From Methylocystis iwaonis (lineage in GTDB: Bacteria; Pseudomonadota; Alphaproteobacteria; Rhizobiales; Beijerinckiaceae), in NCBI RefSeq assembly GCF_027925385.1, contig NZ_AP027142.1, forward strand, positions 3,124,501-3,188,500: a stretch of 64,000 nucleotides of DNA. The letters are read 5' to 3'. Position 1 is the stretch's first letter; every line of letters begins with the position of its first letter. The notes under the pieces were generated by a model, which was not told where the DNA came from, made no database searches, and was given only the letters and a program-made list of their open reading frames with translations. Below, piece after piece: positions 681 to 46,232 of the stretch. A program made the position numbers and the translations under genes.

Positions 681-710
681 CGCCCCCTCCCTGTCCCTCC
701 CCCGCTCGCG
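681..710. repeat. Left arm of palindromic extragenic repeat, split by IS-A
   Basis: This C-rich arm (CCCCCTCCC...CCTCCCCCGCTCGCG) matches the left half of the CCCTCCCCCGCTTCGCGGGGGAGGG repeat seen elsewhere in the window. IS-A separates it from its right half at 2176. The last bases, 703-710, read CGCTCGCG, one T short of the target duplication on the far side. Confidence 0.6.
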
Positions 711-2175
711 GCTATCGAATGCACACATCGTGATTGCCTCGGTCGGGTCTGTTTGATTCCGTTGGTCGCGTTTTGATTCGCGGGGTGGGGCATGGCGATT
801 TCGTATGGACTGGGGCGGTTCGGCGACCGCCGCCTGGAAAAAGGGGGGTCTCGTTGCATCGGGGCCTCGTCGCGCGGCCGTGCGCGCGCATCCGTCGGAT
901 CGCCGGCGGGCAGCGGGCGCAGGAGGTGCGGCTCGCGCGCTTCCTGCGCAATCCTGCGGTGACCGCCGAGGAGATGGCGCGGCACGCCGCCGGGCTCACA
1001 GCGGCGCGGGCGGCGGGTCGCGACATAGTGGTGGCGCAGGACACCAGCGAGCTGGCGCTCGGCGGCAAGCGCGCGCAGGCGAACGGCTATGGGCCGGTCG
1101 GCAAGGGCGGCGGGACGCGCGGCCTTTTGCTGCACGCGGCCCTGGCGCTCGACGCCGGCACGGGCGCGCTGCTCGGCCTCGCTCATGCCGAGGTCTGGAA
1201 CCGCGACACGGGGGCCAAGGTCGCGGCGCGGCGCTCGCGCGCGCTCGCGGACAAGGAATCGCAGCGCTGGCTCGATGTGGCGACGCATGCGCGCGAGGAT
1301 TTCGCGGCGGCGAAGCGGATCACTGTCGTCTCGGATCGGGAGAGCGACATCTACGCGCATCTCGCGCAGCGTCCGGGCGGCGTGGAGCTGATTGTGCGCG
1401 CCTGCCAGAACCGGACGATCGCCGCAGACGGCGAGGATGCGATCGAGCTTTTGTTCCCCTTCGCCGACGGATTGGCCGAGGCGGGCCGCTTCGTCGCCGA
1501 GATCCCGGCGGCTCCGGGACGCAAGGCGCGCAAGGCGGCGCTCGCGGTCCGCGTCTCGCCGGTCACTTTGCGCAAGCCGCGCCACGGCGCGCGCGACTTG
1601 CCGGACGCGGTCGGCGTGACTTTGGTCGACGTGCGCGAGGTCGGGGCCGCCGAGGGCGTCGCGCCCATTCATTGGCGGCTTCTCACGACCCATGCGGCGA
1701 CGAGCCTGGCCGAGGCGCGCCGGGTGATCGACCTCTATCGAATGCGCTGGACCATCGAGGAATTCTTCCGCACGCTGAAGACGGCGGGCTTCGAGATCGA
1801 GCAGGCCGACATCTGCGATCCGAAAGTGATGATCAAGCTGGTGGCGGCGACGGCGGTCGCCGCTGTGACGGTCATGCAACTGGTCAAGGCGCGCGACGGC
1901 GCGACCGACCAGTTGCTGACGGACGCTTTCGAGCCCGAGGACGAAGCGCTGCTCGAGGCCGTCTCGGCGAAGCTCGAGGGCGCGACGGCCCGCCAGAAGA
2001 ACCCCCACCGCAAAGGCAGCCTCGCCTTCGCCGCCTGGGTCGTCGCCAGGCTCGGCGGCTGGACCGCCTATTACGGAAAGCCCGGCCCCAAAGTAATGCG
2101 CCAGGGCCTCGACGACTTTCGACGAATAAAGTTCGGAGCCGCGCTGACCTTCTACGATGTGTGAATCCGATAGCC
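711..2175 (+). mobile_element. IS-A: IS4-superfamily (Tn5/IS50-like) insertion sequence
   Basis: The element is about 1465 bp. Its ends are imperfect inverted repeats of about 21 bp, at 711-731 and 2154-2175, sharing the core CACACATCGT and an outer GCTATCG, with two mismatches. The right flank 2176-2184 is CGCTTCGCG and the left flank 703-710 is CGCTCGCG. This fits a 9-bp target duplication that has lost one T on the left. The stop codon of the transposase lies inside the right inverted repeat. The element sits in a palindromic extragenic repeat, 76 bp from IS-B. Confidence 0.8.
792..2164 (+). CDS. Tn5/IS4-family transposase with apparent -1 frameshift near codon 18
   Basis: The main frame carries a DDE transposase: QDTSELAL and VSDRESDIYAH supply acidic residues, and YRMRWTIEEFFRTLKTAGFE matches the Y-(2)-R-(3)-E-(6)-K signature of IS4-type enzymes. 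The expected DNA-binding N-terminus (MAISYGLGRFGDRRLEKGG) is encoded from the ATG at 792 in a different frame. It joins the main frame only if translation slips back one base at the A5G6 run 838-848. The main frame can also start at TTG 734, but that yields a non-homologous leader (RRPPPGKRG). So this is either a mutated copy, a programmed frameshift, or a homopolymer sequencing error. The rest of the protein looks intact. Confidence 0.75.
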
Positions 2176-2251
2176 CGCTTCGCGGGAGAGGGGACACTCA
2201 TGATCCACATTGTCTATGAAGGCCACAATCTGCTCCCTCTCCCGCGAAGCG
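2176..2251. repeat. Extragenic palindromic repeat fragment between the two insertion sequences
   Basis: This segment runs CGCTTCGCGGGAGAGGGG ... CTCCCTCTCCCGCGAAGCG, so its two ends are inverted copies of each other. It resembles the internal part of the same repeat at 17230-17310 (GGAGAGGGAGCAGAGTGTCGCC) and at 46000-46090. Positions 2176-2184 are the right target duplication of IS-A, and 2243-2251 (CGCGAAGCG) the left target duplication of IS-B. Confidence 0.65.
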
Positions 2252-3541
2252 CAGGGCTGTCCGGGGAAATCATAGGGCCGCGAGCTGGAGCTGCAGACTA
2301 GAGAAGTCTCGGCCGGGCTTGGGCCTGATTGGCGGCTTGTCGATAAGCGCGATCGGCCGGCGGTCGAAGAGGAAGCGGCCGACGAGCTCGGCGAAACGCA
2401 GTGCCGCCATGTCGATCTTGTGGACGCAGGCGGCGATGCGCAGCAGGGTGAAGGCGATCATCGCGGCGAAGAGCTGCAGGCGCACGGCGTTTTCGGCCTC
2501 GCCGATGAAGCTCTTGATGTTGAGATGCTGCTTGATCCAACGGAACAGCAGCTCGATTGCCCAGCGGCCCTTGTAGAGCGCGGCGATTTCCGCGGCCGGG
2601 CGGCGCATGTCGTTGACGATGAGGACGATGCGGCCTTTGGCCTCGTCTCTTTCCACGGTGATGCGCCGCAGCGGCATGGGCAGCTTGGAATCGCCTTTGC
2701 TGGCCAGCGCCACCTCCTCGTCGGCGATCACGGCGAAGCCGTCGCCCCGCGCGCTTTCGGGGTCGAGCGGGCGGGCGGCGATCGCCCGGAAGCGGGCGTT
2801 CGCCTTCGGCCGGGTGACGAAGAAAGCGCCTTGCGCGGCGATCTCGGTCCACCAGCGATAGTCGCAATAGCCTTTGTCGAAGACATAAGCGGCGCCCGGC
2901 TCGATATCGGTTTTCTTGCCGATCTCTATGTCGTTCACATTGGCGGGCGTGACTTCCGCGCGAAGGGGCCGATTGGCGCGCGGGTCATGGACCACGTGCA
3001 TTTTGAGGCCGTGAGTGCGGCCGTTGGAGCGGGCGTAATCGAGGAATTTGCTCAAAGGGATGGGCGTCGAATCGATGAGGCGGATCATGTCCGCGCCCTC
3101 CCGGCGCGTATGACGGTCGAGCGCGCCGGAGAGCATGGCGAAGAGATCGGCGAAGACGGCGACGGGCCGGCGGGCGTTGGCGTCGGAAAGGGTCGTGCGC
3201 GCGAGCCGCCGCGTCCCGAGGTGATAATGCGCGCGCGCGTCGGCGTTGAAGGCGGGAACGAGGGCGCGCAGGCTGGAGACCCCGGCAAGCTGGGCGTAGA
3301 TGAGCGCGACGAGGTGATCCCAGCTCTTGAAGGATTTGTCGTAGGCGTCGCCGCCATGCCGCTCGACGATCTGCTTGAAGGCGCGCCGATCGACCGGCTT
3401 GAGCAGTTGGGCGAATACAGTAGAGTGCACGGGCATGTCCGGTCCTTTTTTCCAGTCTCGACAACCGGAAAATACCCGACAACCGTCGGGAAAACCGGGC
3501 ATGCGCCCGCGACCTTTCGACTCATTCCCCGGACAGCCCTG
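2252..3541 (-). mobile_element. IS-B copy 1: IS4-family insertion sequence, complete
   Basis: The element is 1290 bp. It begins CAGGGCTGTCCGGGGAA and ends with the inverted form, TTCCCCGGACAGCCCTG, giving 17-bp terminal inverted repeats. A perfect 9-bp target duplication, CGCGAAGCG, flanks it at 2243-2251 and 3542-3550. A copy of the same length is present at 44710-45999, and the two translate to identical transposases, which indicates recent transposition. Confidence 0.93.
2270..3436 (-). CDS. IS4-family transposase (DUF4372 N-terminal domain), IS-B copy 1
   Basis: The protein has 388 residues. The N-terminus (MPVHSTVFAQLLKPVDRRAF) matches the DUF4372 domain found on many IS4-family transposases. 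DDE residues are visible in MIRLIDSTPIPL, in YVFDKGYCDYRWW, and in the glutamate of YKGRWAIELLFRWIKQHL, which is the YREK-type signature. The frame stays open upstream of 3436 and past the end of the element, but the ATG at 3436 is the only start that fits the family. The sequence is identical in translation to the copy at 44728-45894, so the enzyme is probably active. Confidence 0.93.
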   Translation of the reverse strand: MPVHSTVFAQLLKPVDRRAFKQIVERHGGDAYDKSFKSWDHLVALIYAQLAGVSSLRALVPAFNADARAHYHLGTRRLARTTLSDANARRPVAVFADLFAMLSGALDRHTRREGADMIRLIDSTPIPLSKFLDYARSNGRTHGLKMHVVHDPRANRPLRAEVTPANVNDIEIGKKTDIEPGAAYVFDKGYCDYRWWTEIAAQGAFFVTRPKANARFRAIAARPLDPESARGDGFAVIADEEVALASKGDSKLPMPLRRITVERDEAKGRIVLIVNDMRRPAAEIAALYKGRWAIELLFRWIKQHLNIKSFIGEAENAVRLQLFAAMIAFTLLRIAACVHKIDMAALRFAELVGRFLFDRRPIALIDKPPIRPKPGRDFSSLQLQLAAL

Positions 3542-3572
3542 CGCGAAGCGGGGGAGGGTTGGGGAGGGGGCA
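3542..3572. repeat. Right arm of the palindromic extragenic repeat after IS-B copy 1
   Basis: The segment CGCGAAGCGGGGGAGGGTTGGGGAGGGGG starts with the target duplication of IS-B and continues as the G-rich arm of the repeat. The same arm, without an insertion, occurs at 4159-4188. Confidence 0.65.
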
Positions 3573-4139
3573 ATGCAGCGCCACAAATCCCGCCGCCGAT
3601 TTCCGACGCGAGCGATCCAGGAAGCCGGGACGCCCCGGCCCCGTTCGGCCGGTAGCGTGAAAAATAAGCGCATCGGGGCCAGAGCGTCCCGGCTGCGGTC
3701 TTTATTCGCGCGCACCGTTCCGAGCCGAAGTAGCGCCATCCAAGCAGCGGTTCCTCCGTCCGGCACGACCGCCAGACGGCGGCCGCTTCTTTGCCAAAGG
3801 CTTTGCAGCCTTTGGGCGCGTCGCAAGGGCCTCGACATGCGCCGCCTCCGGCCCGCCGGCGCTTTCCCTTTCGGTACTCGGGCCGCGTGTCGCGGGCGCG
3901 AAAACTATGCCCAGCCTTTGCGCGGATTTCTCCACGCAATCTCCCCACGAAGGAGAGACCCGGCGGGCGGCGCCGGAGTCCCGCACGGAACGAGGGTCGC
4001 GTCCCGCGCTTAACCGACCCCGCCGGCGCCGCCGACCCTGACGGCGCCCCTGCAAGTTGGCGAGGCGGGGGAAGGATAATGCGGTTTTTGGGGGTGGGGA
4101 TAAATTAGGGAGCGAATTTTCTCTATGACGGCCACGCTC
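3573..4139. other. Stretch without a recognisable gene
   Basis: About 570 bases between IS-B and the next repeat contain only frames with arginine-rich, compositionally random translations. A perfect 9-bp stem with a TTGC loop (CCAAAGGCT / AGCCTTTGG) lies at 3794-3815. No tRNA, known RNA or gene remnant was recognised. The stretch may be decayed DNA associated with the insertion sequences. Confidence 0.5.
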
Positions 4140-4190
4140 TGCCCCTCCCCCGCTGCGCGACGCGAAGCGGGGGAGGGTTGGGGAGGGGGT
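4140..4190. repeat. Palindromic extragenic repeat with an unoccupied IS target
   Basis: The two arms CCCCTCCCCCGCT and AGCGGGGGAGGG flank GCGCGACGCGA. The repeat contains the 9-mer CGCGAAGCG that IS-B duplicated elsewhere, and here it carries no insertion. Confidence 0.6.
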
Positions 4191-4273
4191 AACCCCGCCT
4201 GCGTCCCTGTTTACCGTTGACTTCGCCTTCCGAAACATCGGAGGTAGGCGCGGTTGCCAAGCAGGGAGACGCC

Positions 4274-5008
4274 ATGACGCTCGTTCAGAGCCGACGCAGG
4301 GAGGCGGTCAGGACCGAGGCTCCCGGTCCCGTCCTTGTCGTCACCGGCATGAAGCGCGAAGCCGCCTGCGCGATGGGGGAGGGCGTCGTCGTCCTGTGCA
4401 GCGGCGCCAGCGTCACGCGCCTGCGTGTGGAGCTCGACCGGCTGCATGGGCGGCGTTTTTCGGCCATTGTGAGCTTCGGCCTCGCCGGCGGCCTCGATTA
4501 CGCGCTGCGCCCGGGCGATATCGTCGTCGCGGACGCCGTCATTTCCAATGGCGCGCGCCACGAGACGCATGAGCATCTCTCCGGCGCATTGGCGGAAGCC
4601 ATCGCCGCCAAGGGCCGCAAGGCCGTTCCGGGCGCGATCGTGGGCGTCGACGAACCCGCCATGGATACGATGAGCAAGGCGTGGCTGCGCGAATCGTCGC
4701 GCGCCCATGCGGTCGACATGGAATCCCATCTCGCCGCCGAATACGCCCGTGACTGGAAAATCCCCTTCGTCGCGCTGCGCGCCATCAGCGATCCGGCCTC
4801 GCGCGCCCTGCCCCCGCTCGCCGCCAAGGCGCTGACGCCCGAGGGCGACGTGGACGGAAAAATTGTGGCGCGCGAACTGCTCCGCGCGCCACGTCAAATC
4901 GGCGAATTGATTCTCGCAGGCCTCGATTCCCGCGCGGCCTTCGGCTCCTTAGGCCGCTGTGGACCGCTTCTCGGACCGCTCGCGCGCCTCATGCTCGCGG
5001 ATCTCTGA
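4274..5008 (+). CDS. hpnG: Hopanoid-associated nucleosidase/phosphorylase HpnG
   Basis: HpnG releases adenine from adenosylhopane to give ribosylhopane during C35 bacteriohopanepolyol synthesis. The 244-residue protein has the PNP/MTA-nucleosidase fold: an N-terminal VLVVTGMKREAACA, a central SFGLAGGLDYALRPGDIVVAD, and the VDMESHLAAEYA segment that places a glutamate at the ribose. ATG 4274 is chosen over an in-frame codon at 4217 because the family starts close to the VLVVTG strand and GGGAGA precedes it. The gene converges on hpnH and overlaps its 3' end by 60 bases. The pairing with hpnH makes the assignment firm, although the family resembles other nucleoside phosphorylases. Confidence 0.9.
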   Translation: MTLVQSRRREAVRTEAPGPVLVVTGMKREAACAMGEGVVVLCSGASVTRLRVELDRLHGRRFSAIVSFGLAGGLDYALRPGDIVVADAVISNGARHETHEHLSGALAEAIAAKGRKAVPGAIVGVDEPAMDTMSKAWLRESSRAHAVDMESHLAAEYARDWKIPFVALRAISDPASRALPPLAAKALTPEGDVDGKIVARELLRAPRQIGELILAGLDSRAAFGSLGRCGPLLGPLARLMLADL

Positions 5009-6100
5009 GAGCCGGGCGATGTTCTCGTCATAGACATATTCGGCCGGGCGCTGGTTCTCGAGCGAGATGTCCGCCGCCATCGGGCCCTCGGTGCGCACGC
5101 CGAAGAGCGCCACGGCCGCCGCCTTCCACGGGCGCTTCACCGTATCGGCCACGGCGCTCGGCTCGAAGCCGCAATGGACCATGCAGTCGGCGCATTTCTC
5201 ATAGTTGCCGACGCCATAGGCGTCCCAATTGGTCTCTTCCATCAACTGCTTGAAGGTCGGCACATAGCCTTCGCCGAGAAGATAGCAGGGGCGCTGCCAG
5301 CCGAAGACGGTGCGCAGCGGATTGCCCCAGGGCGTGCAGGCGTAGCTCTCGTTGCCCGCAAGGAAGTTCATGAACAGGCCGGATTGCTGAAACGCCCAGG
5401 CGCGCCCGCCGCGACCGCGGCGCAGGATGTCGCGGAACAGCTCCTTGGTCTTCTGGCGGTTCAGGAAGTGGGTCTGGTCCGGCGCGCGCTCATAGGCGTA
5501 GCCGGGCGACACCGTCATCCCGTCGATGCCAAGCGCCGTGGCGTCGTCGAGGAATTTGGCGACCTTCGCCGGGTCGGCGTCGGCGAAGAAGGTGCTGTTC
5601 GTCGTGACGCGGAAGCCCTTGGATTTGGCGAGTTTGATCGCCTCGACGGCGCGCTCGTAGACGCCCTCCTGGCTCACGGCGCGGTCGTGCATCTCCTTGT
5701 CGCCGTCAAGATGAATCGACCAGGTGAAATAGGGCGAGGGCTTGTACTGGTCGATTTTCTTGGCGAGCAGCAGCGCATTGGTGCAGACGATCGCGAATTT
5801 GCCGCGCTTCGCAATACCCTCGACGATCTGCGGCAAATCCTTGTGCAGCAGCGGCTCGCCGCCCGCGATGACGACGACCGGCGCGCCGCATTCGTCGACC
5901 GAGGCGAGGCATTCGTCGACCGAGAGCCGCTTGTTCAGGATGTGGTCGGGATAGTCGATCTTGCCGCAGCCGGAACAGGCCAGGTTGCAACGAAACAGCG
6001 GCTCCAGCATCAAAACGAGCGGATAGCGTTTCCTGCCCATAAGATGCTGCTTGACGAGATAAGAGCCGATCTTTGCAACGTAACGGAAAGGTATGGACAC
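4949..6100 (-). CDS. hpnH: Adenosyl-hopene transferase HpnH (radical SAM)
   Basis: HpnH adds a 5'-deoxyadenosyl radical to diploptene and so starts the C35 hopanoid side chain. The 383-residue protein carries the radical-SAM cysteines in CNLACSGCGK (CxxxCxxC), the GGEPLL motif, and a C-terminal cysteine cluster (CADCMVHCGF). The N-terminus MSIPFRYVAKIGSYLVKQ is characteristic of HpnH. It converges on hpnG, so the two are partners in pathway but not in an operon. No squalene-hopene cyclase gene lies in the window. Confidence 0.95.
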   Translation of the reverse strand: MSIPFRYVAKIGSYLVKQHLMGRKRYPLVLMLEPLFRCNLACSGCGKIDYPDHILNKRLSVDECLASVDECGAPVVVIAGGEPLLHKDLPQIVEGIAKRGKFAIVCTNALLLAKKIDQYKPSPYFTWSIHLDGDKEMHDRAVSQEGVYERAVEAIKLAKSKGFRVTTNSTFFADADPAKVAKFLDDATALGIDGMTVSPGYAYERAPDQTHFLNRQKTKELFRDILRRGRGGRAWAFQQSGLFMNFLAGNESYACTPWGNPLRTVFGWQRPCYLLGEGYVPTFKQLMEETNWDAYGVGNYEKCADCMVHCGFEPSAVADTVKRPWKAAAVALFGVRTEGPMAADISLENQRPAEYVYDENIARLSEIREHEARERSEKRSTAA

Positions 6101-6249
6101 GGCTTGTTCCTGCTATGGTGCGCGAACCGTCAAGGGGCCGCGAGACAAGAGGCGCCGGCGCGCGTCCTGCTGCGACCATCGCGCCGGTTCGGCCGTCTAA
6201 CACGAAACTGCGGGGGAGGAAAACCCGCCCAGCCAAGGGCCTGCAAGCT

Positions 6250-6312
6250 ACTTGGACCGCGAGCCTTCAGGCTCGCTTTTTTGGCGGCGCGCCCGAAGGC
6301 GCGCGGTCCAAA
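6250..6312. repeat. Extragenic hairpin repeat with T-run (GCGAGCC / GGCTCGC)
   Basis: A 7-bp stem, 6259-6265 and 6270-6276, is followed by six T residues. A second inverted pair (GCGCGCC / GGCGCGC) lies just beyond, and the outer bases GGACCGC / GCGGTCC pair over the whole unit. Parts recur at 22457-22517 and 22677-22705. It looks like a terminator, but no gene transcribed rightwards ends here, so it is listed as a repeat. Confidence 0.55.
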
Positions 6313-6390
6313 GAGCAGACAGCTTGCGAAGCGGCAAAAATAGGTCTCATTTCCATCGCATCAACCGCGACGGTTAGCGAGCTGGCGGCC

Positions 6391-6421
6391 GCCGACCTCC
6401 CCGTAAAGGGGAGGAATGGGG
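6391..6421. repeat. Short extragenic repeat CTCCCCGTAAAGGGGAGG
   Basis: The palindrome CTCCCCGTAAAGGGGAGG is one unit of a family that also appears at 32503-32634 and 41713-41937. Here it lies about 60 bases before the next start codon and stands alone. Confidence 0.5.
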
Positions 6422-6480
6422 ACAGGCTAGCCAGATTGCCGAGGCCCATGATGCGGGGCTGATTGGAGGAGCGCTATTCA

Positions 6481-8682
6481 ATGACTGCCGCGAGCCCGCC
6501 CGCCCGTCCCGCCGTGAGTCCGGCCCCGCGCCGCCTTGCCGCGCTTTTCGCGCCGCTCAAGCGCTTCTGGGCGGGGGACATCGACCTCGGCCGCATCGGC
6601 ATGGCCGTGACCCTGCCCGTCCTCGCCTGGGTTTTCTACACGACCTCCTCCGGCATGATCGACATCATGCAGAAGGAGCAGGGCGACGTGGTCGGGATCG
6701 CCGGCACTTTCGTCGCCACCACGGCGGTGCTCGTCATGCTCGCCTCGACCTCCTGGTCGCTCGGCGCCGACCTCGCGGCGCTGATCGCACGCCGCCGCAT
6801 GGCCCGCGAGCGCATGGTGGTGAAGACGGCCGTGACGGCGGCGGTGTTTCTATTCGTCTTCTCGATCTCGGCCTTTTTCTCTTTCACTTATTATTACAAC
6901 AACATCTTCAAGCTCTCCTCGCGCAAGATCGTCGCCGAGCTGCAGCCCATGGAGCTGGCCGCCGACGTCGTCCTGCCGGCAACGAAAGAGATCAACGCCG
7001 CCTATGAGGCCGCCTCCGCCAAGATCGTCGCCGACCCCGCCTTCAAGGCCTATCTCGACTCGCTCGACGCGCTGATCGACACGGCGCGGACCGCCGGCCC
7101 CGCCTTACGCGAGACCATCCGCAAGAGCCAGGAAGCCCAGCAGGCCGTGCTGGCGAAGGCGGCGCAACAGGCGGCTGCGGAGCTCGAAAGCGCCAACGCC
7201 GCGCGCCGCCAATATGACGAAGGCCGCGCCGAGATCGCCGCTCTCGAGAAAAGCGTCGAGAACCTCGACGCCACCATCAAGGCCAAGCAGGACGAGATCG
7301 CCGCTCTTAGCCTCACCGCGCGGCAGGAGGAGCAGCTTGCGGTCGACGCCGAGCATGGTCTCGACAATCGCGGCGCGGCCTGCGGGATAAACTGCCGGAC
7401 CCATCGGCTCAAGGCGGAGGAAGTCAATCGCCGCATCGCCGCCATCCGCCAGACCCTCGCCGGGCCGACCGCCGAGCGGGCCGCCGCCCTGAAGAAACGC
7501 GACGCGCTGGCCGCCCAGTCCATCTCGCTCAAGCAGAAGGCCGAGCTTGCCGGCGACGCCGCCAAGCGGCCGATGCCCAAGGCCGAAGCCAGCCTCGATC
7601 TCGACGCCACGCTGCGCGATCTGACAGCGCTGCGCGACCAGCTTCGCGTCGAGCCGACATGGGCGCGCGTCCATGAAGCCAAGCCGCTCTGCGAGCCGAT
7701 CCTCGCCGCGGCGCGCCAGTCCAATGCGCTGCCCCAGGCGGTCGGCGGCGACTTCGCCTGCGAGCCGCAGGGCGCGGCGCGCGATCTCCTCTCGGCGCGC
7801 GAGGAGGCCCTCGCCGCCCGCGCCGCCTTCGACAAGAAATGCGGACTGGAGACGGGGCTGCGCGACGAGCTGACAGCCGTTGTCGCCAAGATCCGCGCCG
7901 CCCCTGCCGCCGACAGGACCGCCGCCGCCAATGGCTTCAACGAGGCGAAGGGCCTTGTCGACGCCTGCGTCATGGCCGGCAAGGCGGTGGGCCTCTCCGA
8001 AGACGACGTGCGGGAACTGTTGAAGAAAAGCGACGCCTATCTGCGGGCGCATTCCACCGAGCGCAACAAATTCGAACTCGCCCGCGAGGCCTTTTGGAGC
8101 TTCACGCCCGATTCGACCATGGCGATTTGCGTCGCGATGGCGCAGGACGCCTTTCTCTTCATCATGAAGTTCCTGTCGGAAATCTTCAAACGCGGCTTCG
8201 AGCCGCGCGAGCGGCGTCAGTTCATGACGCCCATGGATTTGACCGATGACGAGGAGGAACCCGTCGAAATCCGCGCCATGAAGGCAATCTTGCGCGTCGC
8301 CCGGCCCAAGCGCGGCGATATGAGCACGATCGACCCCAAGGATCCCGCGCTGCAGCTCCTTGCGCAAAATGTGCAGGACAATCTCGTCGCCATCCTCAAC
8401 CGGCTGGTGCGCGACGAGATCGCCCATGTCGATCGCAAGGGCGCCTATGTCGTCGACAACATCACGATTTCCCAGGTCGAGTCGCGCCTCTTCGCCGCGA
8501 GTAAGCCCAGAACCCGCGGGCGTTACGGTTTTGACGGCTTTGCAGCGAACAGCGGTCCCCGCGCCTATTACAGCGATCCTATCCTCGCGCAGGCCCGCCG
8601 ACGCCGGCCCGCGGCGCTGGAGCGCTATCTGGCGCGGGAAGACGCGGAGTCGGCCGGTCAGCCGGGCGCCCCGCCGGCCTAA
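6481..8682 (+). CDS. Large membrane protein with long coiled coil, function unknown
   Basis: The 733-residue protein is not recognised with certainty. Three hydrophobic segments lie near residues 42-62, 75-97 and 120-142. An Ala/Glu/Lys-rich coiled coil occupies about 200-520, and a weaker hydrophobic segment (MAICVAMAQDAFLFIMKFL) lies near 555-575. A soluble C-terminal tail follows. The layout is like that of DUF4407-type proteins, but that comparison is tentative. A cysteine-containing loop (RGAACGINCRTH) interrupts the coiled coil. GGAGGA at 6465-6470 supports the ATG at 6481 rather than the TTG at 6463. The gene stands alone. Confidence 0.8.
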   Translation: MTAASPPARPAVSPAPRRLAALFAPLKRFWAGDIDLGRIGMAVTLPVLAWVFYTTSSGMIDIMQKEQGDVVGIAGTFVATTAVLVMLASTSWSLGADLAALIARRRMARERMVVKTAVTAAVFLFVFSISAFFSFTYYYNNIFKLSSRKIVAELQPMELAADVVLPATKEINAAYEAASAKIVADPAFKAYLDSLDALIDTARTAGPALRETIRKSQEAQQAVLAKAAQQAAAELESANAARRQYDEGRAEIAALEKSVENLDATIKAKQDEIAALSLTARQEEQLAVDAEHGLDNRGAACGINCRTHRLKAEEVNRRIAAIRQTLAGPTAERAAALKKRDALAAQSISLKQKAELAGDAAKRPMPKAEASLDLDATLRDLTALRDQLRVEPTWARVHEAKPLCEPILAAARQSNALPQAVGGDFACEPQGAARDLLSAREEALAARAAFDKKCGLETGLRDELTAVVAKIRAAPAADRTAAANGFNEAKGLVDACVMAGKAVGLSEDDVRELLKKSDAYLRAHSTERNKFELAREAFWSFTPDSTMAICVAMAQDAFLFIMKFLSEIFKRGFEPRERRQFMTPMDLTDDEEEPVEIRAMKAILRVARPKRGDMSTIDPKDPALQLLAQNVQDNLVAILNRLVRDEIAHVDRKGAYVVDNITISQVESRLFAASKPRTRGRYGFDGFAANSGPRAYYSDPILAQARRRRPAALERYLAREDAESAGQPGAPPA

Positions 8683-8783
8683 TTCGTCCTGTCGTATTGG
8701 ACGGCAGCGCTCAGCGATGCATATTATATGGGCGGTCGAGCGATTGGCCGCCTTTCGCCCGCCCAGGCGCCCGGAGTTCTCCT

Positions 8784-9200
8784 ATGCGCTACTGGCCCTT
8801 GCTCCTTGCGCTGCCCATGGCGCTCGCCATTGGCGGGACGGCGCAGGCCGTCGTGCGCGTGCATATCGATCTGTCGGCCCAGCGGATGTATGTCGTCTCG
8901 TCCTCGGGCAGTTACGTCTGGCCGGTGTCGACCGCGCGCCGGGGCTATCGGACGCCGCGCGGAAGTTTTGCTGCGAAATCGCTGCAGCGCCTCCATTACT
9001 CCAGCAAATATGACAACGCCCCCATGCCGCATTCGATCTTCTTTTCGGGCGGCTACGCCATCCATGGCACTTATGCGACCCGCTCGCTGGGCCGGCCCGT
9101 CTCGCACGGCTGCGTGCGCCTTTCCCCAGGGCACGCGGCGATGCTTTACGACATGGTGCGGCGAGAGGGCGCGCGGATTTCGATCAGCGGGGGACGCTAG
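8784..9200 (+). CDS. L,D-transpeptidase (YkuD domain), short exported form
   Basis: The enzyme class makes 3-3 cross-links in peptidoglycan or attaches proteins to it. The 138-residue protein starts with a signal peptide (MRYWPLLLALPMALAIGG...AQA). The YkuD core follows: IDLSAQRMYVV, the histidine in YAIHGTYATRS, and the catalytic motif SHGCVRLSPGHAAMLYD, whose cysteine is the nucleophile. The ATG at 8784 is chosen because it begins the signal peptide; an earlier in-frame codon at 8697 would bury it. A second, lipoprotein-type member is encoded at 28780-29388. Confidence 0.92.
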   Translation: MRYWPLLLALPMALAIGGTAQAVVRVHIDLSAQRMYVVSSSGSYVWPVSTARRGYRTPRGSFAAKSLQRLHYSSKYDNAPMPHSIFFSGGYAIHGTYATRSLGRPVSHGCVRLSPGHAAMLYDMVRREGARISISGGR

Positions 9201-9293
9201 CCTCCCAGTCTTCCCGACGCAGCGCCCTTGCTTGCCTTGCTGACAGAACGGCTTTCAAATGCGCCGACAAAAAGAAAGAAGAGGGAGGAGATC

Positions 9294-37342: not shown

Positions 37343-37750
37343 ATGGACAAGAAGACAGCCGGCCTTGTCGGCGCCATATCGGCGCTGACCCCCTTGGCGG
37401 CGAGCGCCGCCCCGGCGGTCAAGACGCTGGCGGAAGTGATGGCTCCGACCTCATACGCCGAACTTCTGCAGCCGATTCCCAATGCCGCCGAACTGCTGAA
37501 GCAAGCCGCAACCGCGGCGCCCGAGCCGGAGGCCAAGGTCGAGCAGGCTCAGTATTACTATCCGAACTACAACTATTACTATCAGCCGCGCCGGCGCTAT
37601 TATCACCATCACCACCATCATCATAGCAATTATTGGGGCGGCTACGGCGGCTACGGCGGCTACGGCGGCGGCTATGGCGGTTGGGGGCGGCCCTATTACC
37701 ATCACCATCACCATCACCACCACCATCATCATCACTGGGGCGAAGACTGA
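37343..37750 (+). CDS. His/Gly/Tyr-rich exported protein
   Basis: The 135-residue protein has a signal peptide (MDKKTAGLVGAISALTPLAASA), a helical part to about residue 68, then a tyrosine-rich stretch (YYYPNYNYYYQPRRRYY). Two histidine runs of 7 and 12 are separated by repeated GGYGGYGG units. The protein could bind nickel, zinc or copper in the periplasm; that is inference from composition. GGAAATGC lies shortly upstream of ATG 37343. It follows kdsA by 87 bases. No family is recognised. Confidence 0.8.
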   Translation: MDKKTAGLVGAISALTPLAASAAPAVKTLAEVMAPTSYAELLQPIPNAAELLKQAATAAPEPEAKVEQAQYYYPNYNYYYQPRRRYYHHHHHHHSNYWGGYGGYGGYGGGYGGWGRPYYHHHHHHHHHHHHWGED

Positions 37751-37769
37751 AGAACTCGCATCGGGCGCC

Positions 37770-37924
37770 TGTCACTCCCGGCGGGCTGAAAGCCCGACGG
37801 GAATCCAGAGCCACAAGAGCGCTGGTTTTGCTCTGAGCCCGTCATTGCGAGCGACGCGAAGCAATCCAGGGGCGGCGATGCGGCCCTGGATTGCTTCGTC
37901 GGCTCCGCCTCCTCGCAATGACGG
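37770..37924. repeat. Two extragenic repeat families adjoining
   Basis: The left arm of the CCCGGCGGGCTGAAAGCCCG family (37770-37835) leads directly into an ATTGCGAGCG...CGCAATGACGG inverted pair (37841-37924). The right arm of the first family is missing. Confidence 0.75.
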
Positions 37925-38000
37925 CGGTGATTTCCTCTGTGTCCAAACTGCGCGAGCGGATGGCGCCGAACCAATCGAGCGGCGCCACGACGAGCGCGCC

Positions 38001-38720
38001 TTACCCTTCAGACAATTTCCGCGCCGCGCCATGCATGCGGCGATAGGTGCCGTCGAACACGGTGTCGGTCGTCGAAAGCCATTGCGAATCGGCGCCGAGC
38101 GTCTCGCGGCTTGCGTAGATGCGCCGCGACTGCAGCTCCCGCTCCGCCGCCTCATCCTCGCTCATCGCAACCAGCTCGACCTCGCACTCGGCCGGGACCA
38201 TGGTGAATTGCGCCATGGGCGCGCCCGGCCGGAAAATATGCGTCTGCCCCTCCGGCGGCGCTTTGAAGACGATGAAATAGAGCATCGGCCACCATTCGCG
38301 GATCAGCGCCGGCACGGCGATCGGCGCCGTTCCGGTGGTGTCCGTATAGAAGCTCGGATGCGTTTCGACCTTGATCGCATGGCCCGGCTCGGGCTTGAGA
38401 TCGAGCAGGATCTGATAGGTGTAAAAAGACTCGCCGAAGTTCCGGAACGGCGGCCAGCTCCGGCCGAGCGAGGGCGGCGGGCCGAAGTCGCCCGCCATCG
38501 CCAGCTTGCCGCCCCGAGTCGTGACGTGAAGCGCGTTGTCATAGGGGTAGAAGACCTCCACCCCATATTTCGCGGCCTCGGTGAAGGGCACGCAGTGCCA
38601 GGCGTATTCATGCGAGCCGTCGGTCCGGCGCTCCGGCTCGCCCGCCCAGCCCGGAATTTCGAGCCTGGTGCGGCGCGGGCGCAAATCCTCGCCGCTCATC
38701 CGATATTTGATCTTTTGCAT
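38001..38720 (-). CDS. Conserved hypothetical protein, possibly DUF6065-like
   Basis: The 239-residue protein starts MQKIKYRMSGEDLRPRRTRL. Recognisable text is EYAWHCVPFTEAAKYGVEVF, then FGESFYTYQILLDLKPEPGH, and HIFRPGAPMAQFTMVPAECE near the end. The combination of WHCVPFT and YGVEVFYP resembles DUF6065 proteins, but this is from memory and unverified. There is no signal peptide or membrane segment. The gene stands alone, 66 bases before queF on the same strand order, and may be cotranscribed with it. Confidence 0.75.
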   Translation of the reverse strand: MQKIKYRMSGEDLRPRRTRLEIPGWAGEPERRTDGSHEYAWHCVPFTEAAKYGVEVFYPYDNALHVTTRGGKLAMAGDFGPPPSLGRSWPPFRNFGESFYTYQILLDLKPEPGHAIKVETHPSFYTDTTGTAPIAVPALIREWWPMLYFIVFKAPPEGQTHIFRPGAPMAQFTMVPAECEVELVAMSEDEAAERELQSRRIYASRETLGADSQWLSTTDTVFDGTYRRMHGAARKLSEG

Positions 38721-38786
38721 CTCGCGCCTCCGAGCGGTCGAACGCGTTCAAGCGCTCTCAAAAAGCGGCAAATTCCGGGAAGTGCG

Positions 38787-39248
38787 CTAACCCCGCCCGC
38801 GATAGGGCGGCACGCCCTGATCCGGCAGCCAGAGCCCCTCCGGCGGCGCGCCGGTCTGCCAGAAGACGTCGATGGGAATGCCCCCGCGCGGATACCAATA
38901 GCCGCCGATCCGCAGCCATTTCGGCGTCATCGCCGCAACGAGATCGCGCGCGATGCGCAGCGTGCAATCCTCATGAAAGGCGCCGTGATTGCGGAAGCTT
39001 CCCAGATAGAGCTTTAAGGATTTCGACTCGACCAGCCACTCGCCCGGAACATAGTCGATCACGACATGGGCGAAGTCCGGCTGGCCGGTCACCGGGCAGA
39101 GCGAGGTGAACTCCGGCGCCGTGAAGCGCACGAGATAGGCCGCATCCTTGTGCGGATTGGGCACGAGGTCGAGCTCGGCCTCGTCCGGCGAAGCGGGCAG
39201 CGGCGCTTTCTCGCCGAGGAGAAGCGCGCCTTCATGAGTCTTGGTCAT
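38787..39248 (-). CDS. queF: preQ0 reductase QueF (NADPH-dependent nitrile reductase)
   Basis: QueF reduces the nitrile of preQ0 to preQ1, the next step after QueC toward queuosine. The 153-residue protein is the short, unimodular type. The catalytic cysteine is in [20 protein letters not shown], and the substrate-binding [20 protein letters not shown] block holds the glutamate. ATG 39248 gives the usual length; the frame stays open further up without a homologous start. It is 5.4 kb from queC on the same strand. Confidence 0.96.
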
Positions 39249-39292
39249 GGGGGTTAAAGATAACGGCCCGGCGCGTCCGTCAAGCGCGCCAT

Positions 39293-39374
39293 CCGTCTTG
39301 CAGCGAAGCGACGCACTCCAGAGCCGCGACCACGCCCCTGGGTTGCTTCGTCGCTTCGCGCCTCGCAATGACGG
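39293..39374. repeat. Degenerate extragenic repeat ATTGCGAGCG type
   Basis: The right arm (TGGGTTGCTTCGTCGCTTCG then CCTCGCAATGACGG) is intact, while the left arm (CCGTCTTGCAGCGAAGCGACG) is mutated. It lies upstream of queF. Confidence 0.65.
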
Positions 39375-39382
39375 ACCCGCGA

Positions 39383-40138
39383 TCAGGGATCGCGATCGTC
39401 GGCGCATTCCCCCGTGCGCAGCGTGATCGGATGCGCCGTCATCCAGCCCGAAAGAAAGCGATTGCCGTCGCCCTTGAGCGCCGCCTGCATCTCGGCGCGA
39501 ATGATCTCCAGCCATTTCTGGCGCCGGTCCGGCGTGTTCATCTCGGCGGGCACGCCGAGATCGATGGCCTTGATGGCGAATTGGAACGGCATGGTGTGCC
39601 AGAAGGCGACCGCGCCGCCGCCCTGCATGGCGTCCACAGCCGACTCGGGCGTCTTTGCGAGCTTCTCCTGCTCGGCAAGCGGCACGGGGTCACTTTTGCC
39701 ATTGGCGGGCGCGGCGATGACGACGCCATTGCGGTAAAACATATTCGTCACGGCGCCCTTGCGCTGGGCGGCGAGATTGCCGCCGACGACGAAAGTGGCG
39801 TTCGATTTCTCCACCGCGCATTTCGCCATGCGGTCGAAACAAGCCGCCACGCCGGACATATGGGCGGCGCAGCCGGTCTCGATCCATTTCGCCATTTTCT
39901 CGGGGCTGACGTCGAGGATATAGGCGACGTTGCCGCCATAGTCGCAGCGCTGCACCAGCGCCGCCGGCCAGCCCTGGAAATCCTCCGAGACAGGGGCGCA
40001 AGTTCCCGCGCGAACGGGAGATTTCTCGAAAATGGCCTTGACGGCGGCGACATGCTCCGCCGTCTGCGCCGCCGCGCCTTGCGCGCTAAAGAGCGCTACA
40101 GCCGCCGCGAAGGCGATTTTTCCTTTATCGAAAGCCAT
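39383..40138 (-). CDS. Exported protein of unknown function
   Basis: The 251-residue protein has a signal peptide ([24 protein letters not shown]). The mature part has six cysteines ([36 protein letters not shown]), which suggest disulfides in the periplasm. No domain is recognised. GGAGGA lies 7 bases before the ATG at 40138. The TTG at 40144 is in frame but too close to the ribosome-binding site. It stands alone. Confidence 0.78.
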
Positions 40139-40333
40139 TCCCAATTCCTCCCAGCCTATTCTTTGCTTTTCAGGCGTTTCGAGGACGCCCTATATTTGCT
40201 AAAACGCACGGTAACGGCGGCCCCGCGCCAGTCAACCGGCTCGGGAGCCCAGCGCAAAAACCCCGAATACGTCACCTGCCGCGTGACAGCGGGGCGCTTA
40301 ATGTACGCTTGCCGCGTTAATCCGCCCAGCTAG

Positions 40334-41689
<1,356 letters not shown>

Positions 41690-41712
41690 TCGCGAGCCGC
41701 GATCTCGGGGCT

Positions 41713-41937
41713 CCCCTCCCTCCCCTTTACGGGGAGGGTGGCGAGCGCAGCGAGCCGGATGGGGCCCGGCCTTGCTGTCCGCATCGTCATTGCGAGCGAA
41801 GCGAAGCAATCCAGAGCCCGCGTGACGCCGCTGGATTGCTTCGGAGCTTCGCTCCTCGCAATGACGGAGGGCCCACGCTTACCCCACCCGACCCGGCTTC
41901 GCCGGGCCACCCTCCCCGTAAAGGGGAGGGATTTTTG
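41713..41937. repeat. Nested extragenic repeats between eno and valS
   Basis: The outer unit has TCCCCTTTACGGGGAGGGTG on the left (41721-41740) and CCACCCTCCCCGTAAAGGGG on the right (41908-41927). Inside, at 41786-41867, is a full ATTGCGAGCG ... CGCAATGACGG inverted pair. The intact inner copy and split outer copy suggest that the inner unit arrived later. Confidence 0.8.
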
Positions 41938-41959
41938 TAACAAACGCCCGGCTTACCCG

Positions 41960-44677
41960 ATGACCATGGAAAAAACCTTCGATCCCCGCTCCATAGAGAG
42001 CCGCATCCGCGCCACCTGGGAAGACGCGCAGGCGTTCCGCGCCGGACGCCCGGAACGCGCGGACGCCGCCCCCTATTCCATCGTCATTCCGCCGCCCAAC
42101 GTCACCGGCAGCCTGCATATGGGCCATGCGCTCAACAATACGCTGCAGGACATTCTCGTGCGCTATCACCGCATGAAGGGCCTCGACGTCCTGTGGCAGC
42201 CGGGCACGGATCACGCGGGCATCGCCACGCAAATGGTGGTCGAGCGCCAGCTCATGGAGCGCCAGGAGCCCGGGCGCCGCGAGATGGGCCGCGATAAATT
42301 CCTCGAACGCGTCTGGGAATGGAAGGCGGAATCGGGCGGCAAGATCGTCGAGCAGTTGAAGCGCATCGGCGCCTCCTGCGACTGGTCGCGCGAGCGCTTC
42401 ACGCTGGATGAGGGCCTCTCGCGCGCCGTCGCGAAGGTCTTCGTGCAGCTCTATCGCGATGGGCTGCTTTACAAGGACAAGCGCCTCGTCAATTGGGACC
42501 CGGTCCTGCACACGGCGATCTCTGACCTCGAAGTGCTGCAGCAGGAAGTGAAGGGCCATCTCTGGCGCTTCAAATATCCGGTCGTCGACGACGCCGGCAA
42601 AGAGACCGGCGACTATATCGTCGTCGCGACGACGCGTCCTGAGACCATGCTCGGCGACACGGCGGTGGCCGTGCATCCGGAAGACGAACGCTACAAGGCG
42701 CTCGTCGGCAAGAGGCTGCGCCTTCCGCTCGTCGGCCGATTCATTCCCGTCGTCGCGGATGAATATTCGGACCCCGAAAAGGGCACGGGCGCGGTGAAGA
42801 TCACCCCGGCGCATGACTTCAACGACTTCGAGGTCGGCAAGCGGCATGGGCTGCGGCTCATCAATGTGCTCGACGCGCAGGCGCGCATGACGCTCGCCGC
42901 CAATGCCGAATTCCACGAAGGCGTCGACTCCTCCGAAGAGCTTGTCGCGACGGTCGCAGCGCTCGACGGCCATGATCGTTTCGACGCGCGCAAGCGTGTC
43001 GTCGAGATGATGGAGGAGCGCGGCCTTCTCGACGGCATCGACGACCACAAGCATATGGTCCCGCATGGCGACCGCTCCAACGCCGTGCTGGAGCCGCGCC
43101 TCACCGACCAATGGTATGTCGACGCGAAGACGCTCGCGCAGCCGGCGCTCGCCGCCGTGCGCGACGGCCGCACGAGTTTCGTGCCGAAGAACTGGGAAAA
43201 GACCTATTTTGATTGGCTCGAAAACATCCAGCCCTGGTGCGTGTCGCGCCAGCTCTGGTGGGGCCATCGCATTCCCGCCTGGTATGACGCCGACGGCAAT
43301 GTCTATGTCGAGGAGAGCGAGGAAGCCGCCCATGCCGCCGCCCGCGCACGCACCGGCGAGAATGTGACGCTGACGCGCGACGAGGACGTACTCGACACCT
43401 GGTTCTCCTCCGCGCTCTGGCCCTTCTCGACGCTCGGCTGGCCAGACGAGACGCCGGAGCTTGCCCGCTTCTATCCGACGAATGTGCTGGTCACGGGCTT
43501 CGACATCATCTTCTTCTGGGTCGCCCGCATGATGATGATGGGCCTGCACTTCAAAAAGGAGATTCCCTTCCACGACGTCTACATCCACGCCCTCGTTCGT
43601 GACGAGAAGGGCGCGAAGATGTCGAAGTCGAAGGGCAATGTCATCGATCCGCTGCAGCTCATCGACGAATATGGCGCCGACGCTTTGCGCTTCACGCTCG
43701 CCGCCATGGCGGCGCAGGGCCGCGACATCAAGCTCTCGACGCAGCGCGTCGAAGGCTATCGCAATTTTGCGACGAAGCTCTGGAACGCCTCGCGCTTCGC
43801 CGAGATGAACGGCTGCGCGCGCGTTGCGGCCTATGATCCGCGCGCCAATAAGGTGACGCTCAACCGCTGGATCGTCACTGAAGCGGCGCGCACGGTTCGC
43901 GACGTTTCCGCCGCGATTGACGCCTATCGCTTCAACGACGCGGCGGGCGCGGCCTATCGCTTCGTCTGGAACGTCTTCTGCGACTGGTATGTGGAGCTGA
44001 CGAAGCCGCTCCTCACCGGCCCCGACGGCGCCGAAAAGGACGAAACGCGAGCGACCACCGCCTTCGTGCTCGACCAGATTTACGCGCTGTTGCATCCCTT
44101 CATGCCCTTCATCACCGAGGAGCTATGGGCGATCAAGGGCGCGGATGGCCCGGCGCGAGACAGCCTGCTCGTTCTCGCGCATTGGCCGTCGCTCGAAGGC
44201 CTGGATGACGCCGAGGCCGAGAGCGAGATTGGCTGGGTGGTCGACCTCATCTCGGAAATCCGCTCGCTGCGCGCCGAGATGAATTTGAACGTCGAAACCG
44301 AGCTTCTGCTGATCGGCGCCGACGCCGGCCTTCAGACGCGCGCGACGCGCTGGGAGGAGACAATCCGCAAGCTCGCGCGCCAGTCGAAGATCGGCTTCGC
44401 CGAGGCCGCGCCGAAATCGTCGGCGCAGATCATCGTGCGCGGGGGCGTCGTCGCCATCCCGCTCGAAGGCGTGATCGACCTCGGCGCCGAGAAGGCGCGT
44501 CTCGCCAAGGAAATCGGCAAGCTCGAAGGCGAGGTGAAGAAGGTCGACGCCAAGCTCGCCAATCCGGGCTTCCTCGCCAAGGCGGACGAAGATGTCATCG
44601 AGGAGCACAAGGAGCGCCGCGACGAGGCGCAGGCGCGCATCGAGAAGCTGACGGCGGCGATGGGGCGGCTGGGTTAA
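41960..44677 (+). CDS. valS: Valyl-tRNA synthetase
   Basis: The 905-residue class I synthetase has the HIGH-type motif in [16 protein letters not shown], the KMSKS motif in [16 protein letters not shown], and the editing domain with [19 protein letters not shown]. The C-terminal tail ([20 protein letters not shown]) is the coiled-coil arm typical of ValRS. ATG 41960 and ATG 41966 are both possible; the first is used. An IS-B copy lies 32 bases after its stop, close enough to remove any terminator. Confidence 0.97.
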
Positions 44678-44679
44678 GG

Positions 44680-44709
44680 ACCCCCTCCCCAACCCTCCCC
44701 CGCTTCGCG
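44680..44709. repeat. Left arm of palindromic extragenic repeat before IS-B copy 2
   Basis: The C-rich arm CCCCCTCCCCAACCCTCCCCCGCTTCGCG ends with the 9-base target duplication of IS-B (44701-44709, CGCTTCGCG). It begins just after the valS stop codon. Confidence 0.7.
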
Positions 44710-45999
44710 CAGGGCTGTCCGGGGAAATCATAGGGCCGCGAGCTGGAGCTGCAGACTAGAGAAGTCTCGGCCGGGCTTGGGCCTGATTGGCGGCTTGTCG
44801 ATAAGCGCGATCGGCCGGCGGTCGAAGAGGAAGCGGCCGACGAGCTCGGCGAAACGCAGTGCCGCCATGTCGATCTTGTGGACGCAGGCGGCGATGCGCA
44901 GCAGGGTGAAGGCGATCATCGCGGCGAAGAGCTGCAGGCGCACGGCGTTTTCGGCCTCGCCGATGAAGCTCTTGATGTTGAGATGCTGCTTGATCCAACG
45001 GAACAGCAGCTCGATTGCCCAGCGGCCCTTGTAGAGCGCGGCGATTTCCGCGGCCGGGCGGCGCATGTCGTTGACGATGAGGACGATGCGGCCTTTGGCC
45101 TCGTCTCTTTCCACGGTGATGCGCCGCAGCGGCATGGGCAGCTTGGAATCGCCTTTGCTGGCCAGCGCCACCTCCTCGTCGGCGATCACGGCGAAGCCGT
45201 CGCCCCGCGCGCTTTCGGGGTCGAGCGGGCGGGCGGCGATCGCCCGGAAGCGGGCGTTCGCCTTCGGCCGGGTGACGAAGAAAGCGCCTTGCGCGGCGAT
45301 CTCGGTCCACCAGCGATAGTCGCAATAGCCTTTGTCGAAGACATAAGCGGCGCCCGGCTCGATATCGGTTTTCTTGCCGATCTCTATGTCGTTCACATTG
45401 GCGGGCGTGACTTCCGCGCGAAGGGGCCGATTGGCGCGCGGGTCATGGACCACGTGCATTTTGAGGCCGTGAGTGCGGCCGTTGGAGCGGGCGTAATCGA
45501 GGAATTTGCTCAAAGGGATGGGCGTCGAATCGATGAGGCGGATCATGTCCGCGCCCTCCCGGCGCGTATGACGGTCGAGCGCGCCGGAGAGCATGGCGAA
45601 GAGATCGGCGAAGACGGCGACGGGCCGGCGGGCGTTGGCGTCGGAAAGGGTCGTGCGCGCGAGCCGCCGCGTCCCGAGGTGATAATGCGCGCGCGCGTCG
45701 GCGTTGAAGGCGGGAACGAGGGCGCGCAGGCTGGAGACCCCGGCAAGCTGGGCGTAGATGAGCGCGACGAGGTGATCCCAGCTCTTGAAGGATTTGTCGT
45801 AGGCGTCGCCGCCATGCCGCTCGACGATCTGCTTGAAGGCGCGCCGATCGACCGGCTTGAGCAGTTGGGCGAATACAGTAGAGTGCACGGGCATGTCCGG
45901 TCCTTTTTTCCAGTCTCGACAACCGGAAAATACCCGACAACCGTCGGGAAAACCGGGCATGCGCCCGCGACCTTTCGACTCATTCCCCGGACAGCCCTG
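44710..45999 (-). mobile_element. IS-B copy 2: IS4-family insertion sequence, complete
   Basis: The element has the same 1290 bp and 17-bp inverted ends as copy 1, and the same internal translations. The target duplication is CGCTTCGCG, 44701-44709 and 46000-46008, which is the reverse complement of the duplication at copy 1. Both copies lie in the same orientation relative to the window, but in opposite orientation relative to their target repeat. Confidence 0.93.
44728..45894 (-). CDS. IS4-family transposase (DUF4372 N-terminal domain), IS-B copy 2
   Basis: The 388-residue protein is identical in translation to the one at 2270-3436. All three acidic residues and the YKGRWAIELLFRWIKQHL signature are present. 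As at copy 1, the frame is open beyond the element to about 46104, but that part is host repeat sequence. Confidence 0.93.
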   Translation of the reverse strand: MPVHSTVFAQLLKPVDRRAFKQIVERHGGDAYDKSFKSWDHLVALIYAQLAGVSSLRALVPAFNADARAHYHLGTRRLARTTLSDANARRPVAVFADLFAMLSGALDRHTRREGADMIRLIDSTPIPLSKFLDYARSNGRTHGLKMHVVHDPRANRPLRAEVTPANVNDIEIGKKTDIEPGAAYVFDKGYCDYRWWTEIAAQGAFFVTRPKANARFRAIAARPLDPESARGDGFAVIADEEVALASKGDSKLPMPLRRITVERDEAKGRIVLIVNDMRRPAAEIAALYKGRWAIELLFRWIKQHLNIKSFIGEAENAVRLQLFAAMIAFTLLRIAACVHKIDMAALRFAELVGRFLFDRRPIALIDKPPIRPKPGRDFSSLQLQLAAL

Positions 46000-46232
46000 C
46001 GCTTCGCGGGAGAGGGAGTAGATTGTCGCCTTCATCGACCGCGCCGATCGTGAGCCACGTCTCCCTCCCCCTTGCGGGGAGGGGTTAGGGGTGGGGGTCG
46101 ACAATCTTCGTCGCCATCTCGGCTACCCCCACCCTGCCCTCCCCGCAAGGGGGAGGGATGGATCGTCGCCTTCATCAAACGCCACAACCGTCCTTGCGAG
46201 CGCGGCGAAGCAATCGAGGCCCGCAATGACGG
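46000..46232. repeat. Extragenic repeat cluster upstream of polA
   Basis: 46000-46090 is the right arm and inner part of the palindromic repeat (GCGGGAGAGGGAGTAGATTG). A CCTCCCCCTTGCGGGGAGGG palindrome and its inverted partner at 46138-46158 follow, each next to a GTCGCCTTCATC tag. At 46190-46232 a half copy of the ATTGCGAGCG family ends the cluster, 35 bases from the polA start. Confidence 0.7.

Follow-up and report, generated by a model that had tools for sequence, protein, structure and literature searches.

Insertion sequences (IS) that enter repetitive extragenic palindromes (REPs) are well established, and include IS1397 and ISKpn1 of the IS3 family, IS621, ISPpu9, ISPpu10, and ISPa11 of the IS110 family, and ISRm22 of the IS4 family, all 10 copies of which lie in REPs at the axis of palindromy, some with hybrid duplications (PMC1525189, Table 2). 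The IS110 elements are described as employing a guide RNA (PMC11208160, PMC11187229), while ISRm22, from Sinorhizobium meliloti 1021, is placed in subgroup IS4Sa and has conserved target arms (PMC2266710). Here, we describe two elements, IS-A and IS-B, found in a 64,000-nucleotide stretch of the 4.48-Mb genome of Methylocystis iwaonis (the window; positions 3,124,501 to 3,188,500 of contig 1, genome label G000). Like ISRm22, both are inserted at the palindromy axis of REPs, a term used here for extragenic palindromes with CTCCC...GGGAG-type arms, and they resemble it also in the conservation of the arms and in the occurrence of hybrid duplications; the regular duplications are 9 bp long for IS-B and 6 bp for ISRm22 (PMC1525189). 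The IS3 and IS110 elements listed above show a similarly high selectivity for REPs but have transposases of other families. We argue that the transposases of IS-A and IS-B probably choose their targets by reading double-stranded arms, of which REPs are the main supply.

IS-B is present in the genome in 15 full copies and 1 partial copy, and IS-A in 14 copies; of four further matches to IS-A, two turned out to be short stretches and two to be copies of a third element, IS-C, which is 64% identical. When the flanks were read by eye, the centre of a REP was interrupted by all 15 full IS-B copies and all 14 IS-A copies; among these 29, the palindromes of L006 and L015 are degenerate and L030 is without its right end. 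Under a fixed rule for the arms (TCCC within the last 24 bases on the left, GGGA within the first 24 bases on the right), 14 of the 15 IS-B copies and all 13 resolved IS-A copies qualified, compared with 0.5% of random positions in a 400-kb sample made up of evenly spaced stretches of the genome. The pattern CTCCC-N4..12-GGGAG occurs 271 times in the 4.48 Mb and its reversed control 53 times. With only 271 such sites available, 29 hits out of 29 are far more than chance would give, and the preference for the centre of an extragenic palindrome, which the initial annotation had suggested from three insertions in the window, is near-absolute and thus stronger than was then apparent. Other IS of the same genome do not share it, since by eye none of the 7 copies of an IS5-type element (two of them with the same flanks) and none of the 6 copies of an rve-type element lie in such palindromes. 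These controls comprised 7 of the other PF01609 matches and 6 of the 27 rve matches, the remainder being single-copy or having unresolved ends.

What the two elements share is not, as had been proposed, one 9-base target. The tips of the REPs used vary widely (CGCTTCGCG, CGTTTCACG, CGCTTGCGG, CCTTTACG, GCAAAGG, CGCGCAGC), and their constant trait is a run of pyrimidines to the left and of purines to the right. Ten of the 15 IS-B and 8 of the 13 resolved IS-A copies are flanked by exact duplications, which vary in sequence; CGCTTCGCG or its complement constitutes the duplication in 4/15 IS-B copies only and is contained within it in 2/13 resolved IS-A copies. Counted on both strands, CGCTTCGCG occurs 27 times in the 400-kb sample, or about 300 times per genome by extrapolation, and a word so frequent cannot define the target by itself. 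The 9-mer is ruled out as the target by this frequency and by the variety of the duplications: most copies have another duplication, which disposes of the 9-mer and leaves the palindrome standing. In L029, L248, L275, and L276, the tip has opposite orientations in the two REP halves and is not a direct repeat; L058 appears on the same list, but its tip is self-complementary. The IS-A copies L018 and L019 (contig 1, 3592304 and 3532022) agree over about 100 bp of their left flanks and have the same hybrid REP, and their right sides diverge.

The IS4 family is defined by a DDE transposase encoded in a single open reading frame (ORF) and bearing the YREK signature (PMC2266710). Both elements have a single ORF, both transposases are matched by DDE_Tnp_1 and by NCBIfam IS4 models, and both carry the signature Y-(2)-R-(3)-E-(6)-K, as YRMRWTIEEFFRTLK in IS-A and YKGRWAIELLFRWIK in IS-B. 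The IS-A protein matches the Tn5 transposase (PDB, E 1.5e-30) and NF033590, while that of IS-B matches DUF4372 plus DDE_Tnp_1 and NF033592. The best BLASTP alignment between them covers 16 residues, at the YREK motif (E 0.009). The transposases had been called unrelated; judged by these matches, they are distant relatives within the IS4 family, even though BLASTP aligns little beyond the motif. The duplications of about one helix turn, a trait of the family, measure 9 bp in 10/15 IS-B copies and 10 to 11 bp in 8/13 resolved IS-A copies.

By its traits, rather than by a tree, IS-B fits subgroup IS4Sa, described as having CA------T ends, repeats of 8 to 10 bp, and a length of 1150 to 1750 bp (PMC2266710): its end is CAGGGCTGT..., its repeats are 9 bp, and it is 1290 bp long. 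A reading of the IS-B ends with GCG added and a duplication of 3 bp, suggested by the gcg...cgc common to both window copies, is ruled out by the CGCTTGCGG or CCGCTTGCG duplications and by the 9-bp duplications at sites outside REPs. IS-A resembles Tn5/IS50 in its transposase match, its YREK motif, and its 5'-CT ends. Subgroup IS50 is given as 1350 to 1550 bp long with CW------Y---CA-A--W- ends and direct repeats of 8 to 9 bp (PMC2266710); the IS-A end, CTATCGAATGCACACATCG, agrees except at the last listed base, and the length is 1462 bp. IS-A differs in having REPs as its sites and direct repeats of 10 to 11 bp with CTA...TAG ends, the 8- to 9-bp length being obtained only with GCTA...TAGC ends. 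We set the ends at CTATCG...CGATAG because in relatives ends of this type come with direct repeats, as at 18 of 26 other IS-A-clade sites (9 bp at 3, 10 bp at 11, 11 bp at 3, and 12 bp at 1). Going by these relatives, GCTATCG...CGATAGC appears less favoured, and the IS-A duplication is put at 10 to 11 bp rather than 9.

In the window, IS-A occupies 712 to 2173 on the plus strand. Its transposase ORF (734 to 2164, plus strand) encodes 476 amino acids (aa) counted from the first TTG, the putative start. The left half of the interrupted REP, at 683 to 711, reads CCCCCTCCC-TGT-CCCTCCCCC plus tip, and the right half lies at 2174 to 2193, both on the plus strand. The right side holds CGCTTCGCG at 2176 to 2184, the left side a different 8-base word, CGCTCGCG, at 703 to 710; since the flanks, CCCGCTCGCGG and CCCGCTTCGCG, differ, this copy is without an intact duplication. 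A second, inverted REP follows (left half at 2233 to 2251, right half at 3542 to 3570, plus strand; the latter bears a mirror third arm, GGGGAGGGGG) and is interrupted by IS-B copy 1 at 2252 to 3541 on the minus strand, with ends CAGGGCTGTCC...GGACAGCCCTG and a transposase of 388 aa (2270 to 3436, minus strand; DUF4372 plus DDE_Tnp_1). The insertion point is the centre of CCCTCTCCCGCGAAGCGGGGGAGGG, and the flanks are CGCGAAGCG/CGCGAAGCG. IS-B copy 2, of the same sequence and likewise 1290 bp long, lies at 44710 to 45999 on the minus strand (transposase 44728 to 45894), between the REP halves at 44681 to 44709 and 46000 to 46016 of the plus strand; it entered the centre of CCCTCCCCCGCTTCGCGGGAGAGGG and is flanked by CGCTTCGCG/CGCTTCGCG. 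The exact 9-bp duplications of the two copies (2243 to 2251 and 3542 to 3550; 44701 to 44709 and 46000 to 46008) are reverse complements of one another, and the coordinates given earlier were right. Inverted REP pairs with an insertion in each REP, 75 to 78 bp apart, were seen three times, twice with IS-A plus IS-B and once with IS-A plus IS-A (window 712 to 3541; contig 1 of the genome, 380493 to 383323 and 291084 to 294088).

We then looked at relatives in other genomes, sampled as the best matches from genome lists rather than as a census. At the thresholds used, and with the source genome included, a relative of IS-B was present in 2/149 and 2/397 genomes and one of IS-A in 3/149 and 8/397; the plasmid records fetched were 6 of the 110 with an IS-B relative and 3 of the 16 with an IS-A relative. 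The arm-rule counts leave aside L030, L071, and L272 (ends unresolved), L016 (partial), L033 and L034 (short matches), L078, L080 to L082, L213, L288, 13 Bradyrhizobium loci cut off within the element, so that only its left half is covered, and the remaining distant ones of the 80 relative loci. On this basis, 47 of 57 IS-B-clade sites and 33 of 39 IS-A-clade sites, those of this genome included, satisfied the rule, against 0.5% at random. In G146, which belongs to another genus (68 to 69% aa identity), the 12 IS-B-clade copies among the matches listed were all in palindromes by eye and 10 of them by the rule. Of the 23 IS-B-clade copies on the 3.7-Mb replicon of S. meliloti Ak57, 20 qualified (L246, L258, and L261 failed), as did one on pSymB of S. 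meliloti 1021 and one in Mesorhizobium plurifarium, while the single copies in NGR234, R. leguminosarum, Mesorhizobium L-2-11, and a Bradyrhizobium metagenome-assembled genome failed. The Mesorhizobium copy L079 satisfied the rule, yet its site is not REP-like in appearance. The 60%-identical S. meliloti element, annotated as ISRm16 family in other strains, may be ISRm22 itself or a separate element. The IS-A clade was sampled in eight other genomes and three plasmid records with resolved ends (38 to 57% aa identity), together with IS-C, of which L031 lies in a REP centre and L032 beside a REP. Four IS-A-clade copies in G355 are in another palindrome, GTCCCTGCG-TT/AA-CGCAGGGAC, in which TCCC...GGGA is still present. 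Most of the relatives examined behave in a similar way, apparently through a preference for sites with one pyrimidine-rich arm and, opposite it, one that is rich in purines.

When the sites were aligned on the duplication, with both halves folded together, those of IS-B had C at the first duplicated base in 95% and at the two bases outside it in 93% and 89%, with the next four positions 91 to 97% pyrimidine; at IS-A sites, the five bases outside the duplication were 88 to 100% pyrimidine. Arms and palindromy are inseparable in REPs and separable in sites off REPs, here the 8 IS-B-clade and 5 IS-A-clade sites that fell short of the arm rule as well as of the palindromy cut. Arm scores at the 8 IS-B-clade sites averaged 12.1 out of 16 (random, 8.0; standard deviation, 2.0), a value reached by none of 20,000 resampled means, and there was no excess of palindromy (5.4 of 12 versus 5.1 at random, P = 0.31). 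The 5 IS-A-clade sites had a mean arm score of 11.8 and likewise no excess of palindromy (5.8, P = 0.14). The genome also holds a second REP family, ATG[CG]CCGCG-N5-CGCGG[CG]CAT, with 49 copies and a similar tip but without the pyrimidine/purine arms, and none of the 29 insertions is in it; its members are often paired, about 108 bp apart. That sites off REPs keep the arms without extra palindromy, and that the armless family is unhit, points to the duplex arms, not a hairpin, as what is read.

Profiles of the target were trained on sites of other genomes, 42 for IS-B and 24 for IS-A. The 15 IS-B sites of this genome scored a median of 18.7 bits and a minimum of -3.4. Sites of the 400-kb sample that scored at least the median of the used sites were REPs in 5 of 5 cases with the IS-B profile and in 11 of 13 with the IS-A profile. 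REPs of the CTTTACG class scored about 10 with the IS-B profile and stood at the top of the IS-A list, a ranking in agreement with the actual use of this class by each element: 0/15 for IS-B, compared with 28 of 100 listed sites (P = 0.02), and 2/14 plus two hybrids for IS-A. Conversely, CTCCCG-N4-CGGGAG-type classes were used by 5/15 IS-B and 0/14 IS-A copies (P = 0.04). Both elements overused class I REPs (10/15 IS-B and 10/14 IS-A copies versus 20/100 listed sites; P = 0.0005 and 0.0002), with the proviso that available classes were taken from the first 100 of the 271 listed sites with perfect 5+5 arms, so that imperfect REPs may be undercounted. All class tests were uncorrected Fisher tests, with the classes of used sites set by eye.

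Class I REPs have the layout CCCCCTCCC-TGT-CCCTCCCCC-tip-GGGAGAGGG and have, in sequence, the build of TMECO, a G/C-rich intrastrand triplex motif (PMC4666352), as does the pSymB site of S. meliloti: a pyrimidine arm, a 3-nucleotide spacer, a mirror pyrimidine arm, a tip, and a purine arm. In E. coli, TMECO sites are linked with rearrangement and are reported there as having no transposase remnants beside them (PMC4666352), whereas the repeats described here are the main sites of two IS. The mirror third arm was found at 10/15 IS-B and 9/13 IS-A sites of this genome, against 0.05% at random. By clade, it was present at 18/57 IS-B and 10/39 IS-A sites, and elsewhere at 5/23 in Ak57, 2/12 (IS-B) and 0/5 (IS-A) in G146, and 0/4 in each of G299, G355, and G367; a third arm is not required.

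We therefore picture IS-A and IS-B as cut-and-paste elements whose transposase would pick its site by duplex arms, namely, a pyrimidine run (CTCCC or similar), then 9 bp (IS-B) or about 10 to 11 bp (IS-A), then the purine counterpart. The element would enter across the spacer between the arms, and the spacer would be duplicated. As CTCCC/GGGAG palindromes would be the genome's main source of such double arms, insertions would land at palindrome centres, and it is plausible that targeting of REPs thereby keeps them out of genes. Several observations weigh against this picture. Ten of the 28 resolved copies (5/15 IS-B, 5/13 IS-A) are without a matching duplication; both halves are still REP halves, and hybrid duplications are usually explained by recombination between copies (PMC1525189). 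With the threshold lowered to the weakest site in use, the IS-B profile admits 2111 sites, of which 17 are in REPs, and the IS-A profile 24, of which 11 are; because so many non-REP sites are admitted, the profiles are not a full description of the target. Even at the IS-A median, 2 of the 13 sites are not REPs, and none of these non-REP sites was used by the 14 copies, so the arms alone may not suffice. The sets of sites off REPs are small (8 and 5), L036, L061, and L278 among them being REP-like by eye; the random model was built from one genome; and the arms of L036, L258, L077, L069, and L211 are poor (9 to 11 of 16), with the IS-A-clade sites L069 and L211 lying in neither a REP nor clear arms.

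Recognition of an extruded structure, be it a hairpin, a cruciform, or an intrastrand triplex, instead of duplex sequence would account for the location of all 29 copies at palindrome centres, for the over-representation of the REPs with a mirror third arm, and for the different palindrome used in G355. We nevertheless consider it unlikely, and with it the hairpin recognition proposed in the initial annotation. The 400-kb sample alone contains 268 perfect inverted repeats with a stem of at least 8, 14 of them with CTCCC-type arms, and neither these nor the 49 REPs of the second family were used by the 29 copies; the sites off REPs are no more palindromic than chance, which disfavours any hairpin as the target; and the third arm is missing at 39/57 IS-B-clade and 29/39 IS-A-clade sites. 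One target type common to two distant transposases in the same cell might also reflect a host REP-binding protein that recruits both. The differing tastes of IS-A and IS-B for REP classes argue against one shared recruiter, and the arms are kept off REPs and in other genera, which makes such a protein a distinctly improbable explanation.

REPs by their nature lie outside genes, and both sites in the window are between ORFs, as would be expected if there were no targeting and selection had purged all insertions but those in harmless REPs. It is hard to see, however, why the survivors should then always be at a REP centre and never in other intergenic DNA, or why the control IS should be absent from REPs, and we give this explanation very little credence. 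Scarcely any more is due to the idea that REP halves moved along with the elements, through recombination or duplication of REP-IS-REP units. The mismatched duplications and the left flank common to L018 and L019 speak for it, but no other pair of copies has a common flank of at least 60 bp, and the exact duplications of varied sequence contradict it for most copies. Reading of duplex arms by the transposases remains the explanation that we prefer. The wider proposition that two distant IS4 branches, with a common duplex code of pyrimidine arm, 9 to 11 bp, and purine arm, converge on triplex-type REPs as gene-sparing docking sites is more doubtful, and we offer it tentatively.

In the open literature searched, which included PMC5082802 and PMC3733652 but neither subscription papers nor ISfinder, we came across no account of IS50-like elements that insert specifically into REPs, of a pyrimidine/purine arm rule, or of an overlap between REP-directed IS and intrastrand-triplex motifs. 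The results would thus extend REP-specific transposition to the Tn5/IS50-like branch, show the IS4Sa case in further genera, and replace "palindrome" or "hairpin" by a testable code of pyrimidine arm, short spacer, and purine arm. How enzymes of the Tn5 type choose their targets could become clearer from one whose target is strict. Triplex-type repeats would also be tied to a concrete source of rearrangement; if the wider proposition is true, docking of IS4 elements at triplex-type REPs would be a direct cause of the rearrangements reported around triplex motifs.

For IS-B copy 2, other genomes were inspected at the corresponding place. In G017, of the same genus, the place was traced via the upstream gene (flank 86% identical) and is an uninterrupted REP. 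G150 (flank 94%) has the same REP tip, lengthened by about 40 bp that are rich in hairpins, and the other five loci examined at this place (L266 and L268 to L271) have no comparable palindrome. A REP tip with an insert of this kind, GGGCGTC...GACGCCC, was seen both in G150 (L265) and in G000 (L198:3115), and may be due either to a small mobile element or to a longer form of the REP. One IS-C copy, L032, borders on a hairpin-rich stretch of the same length and kind.

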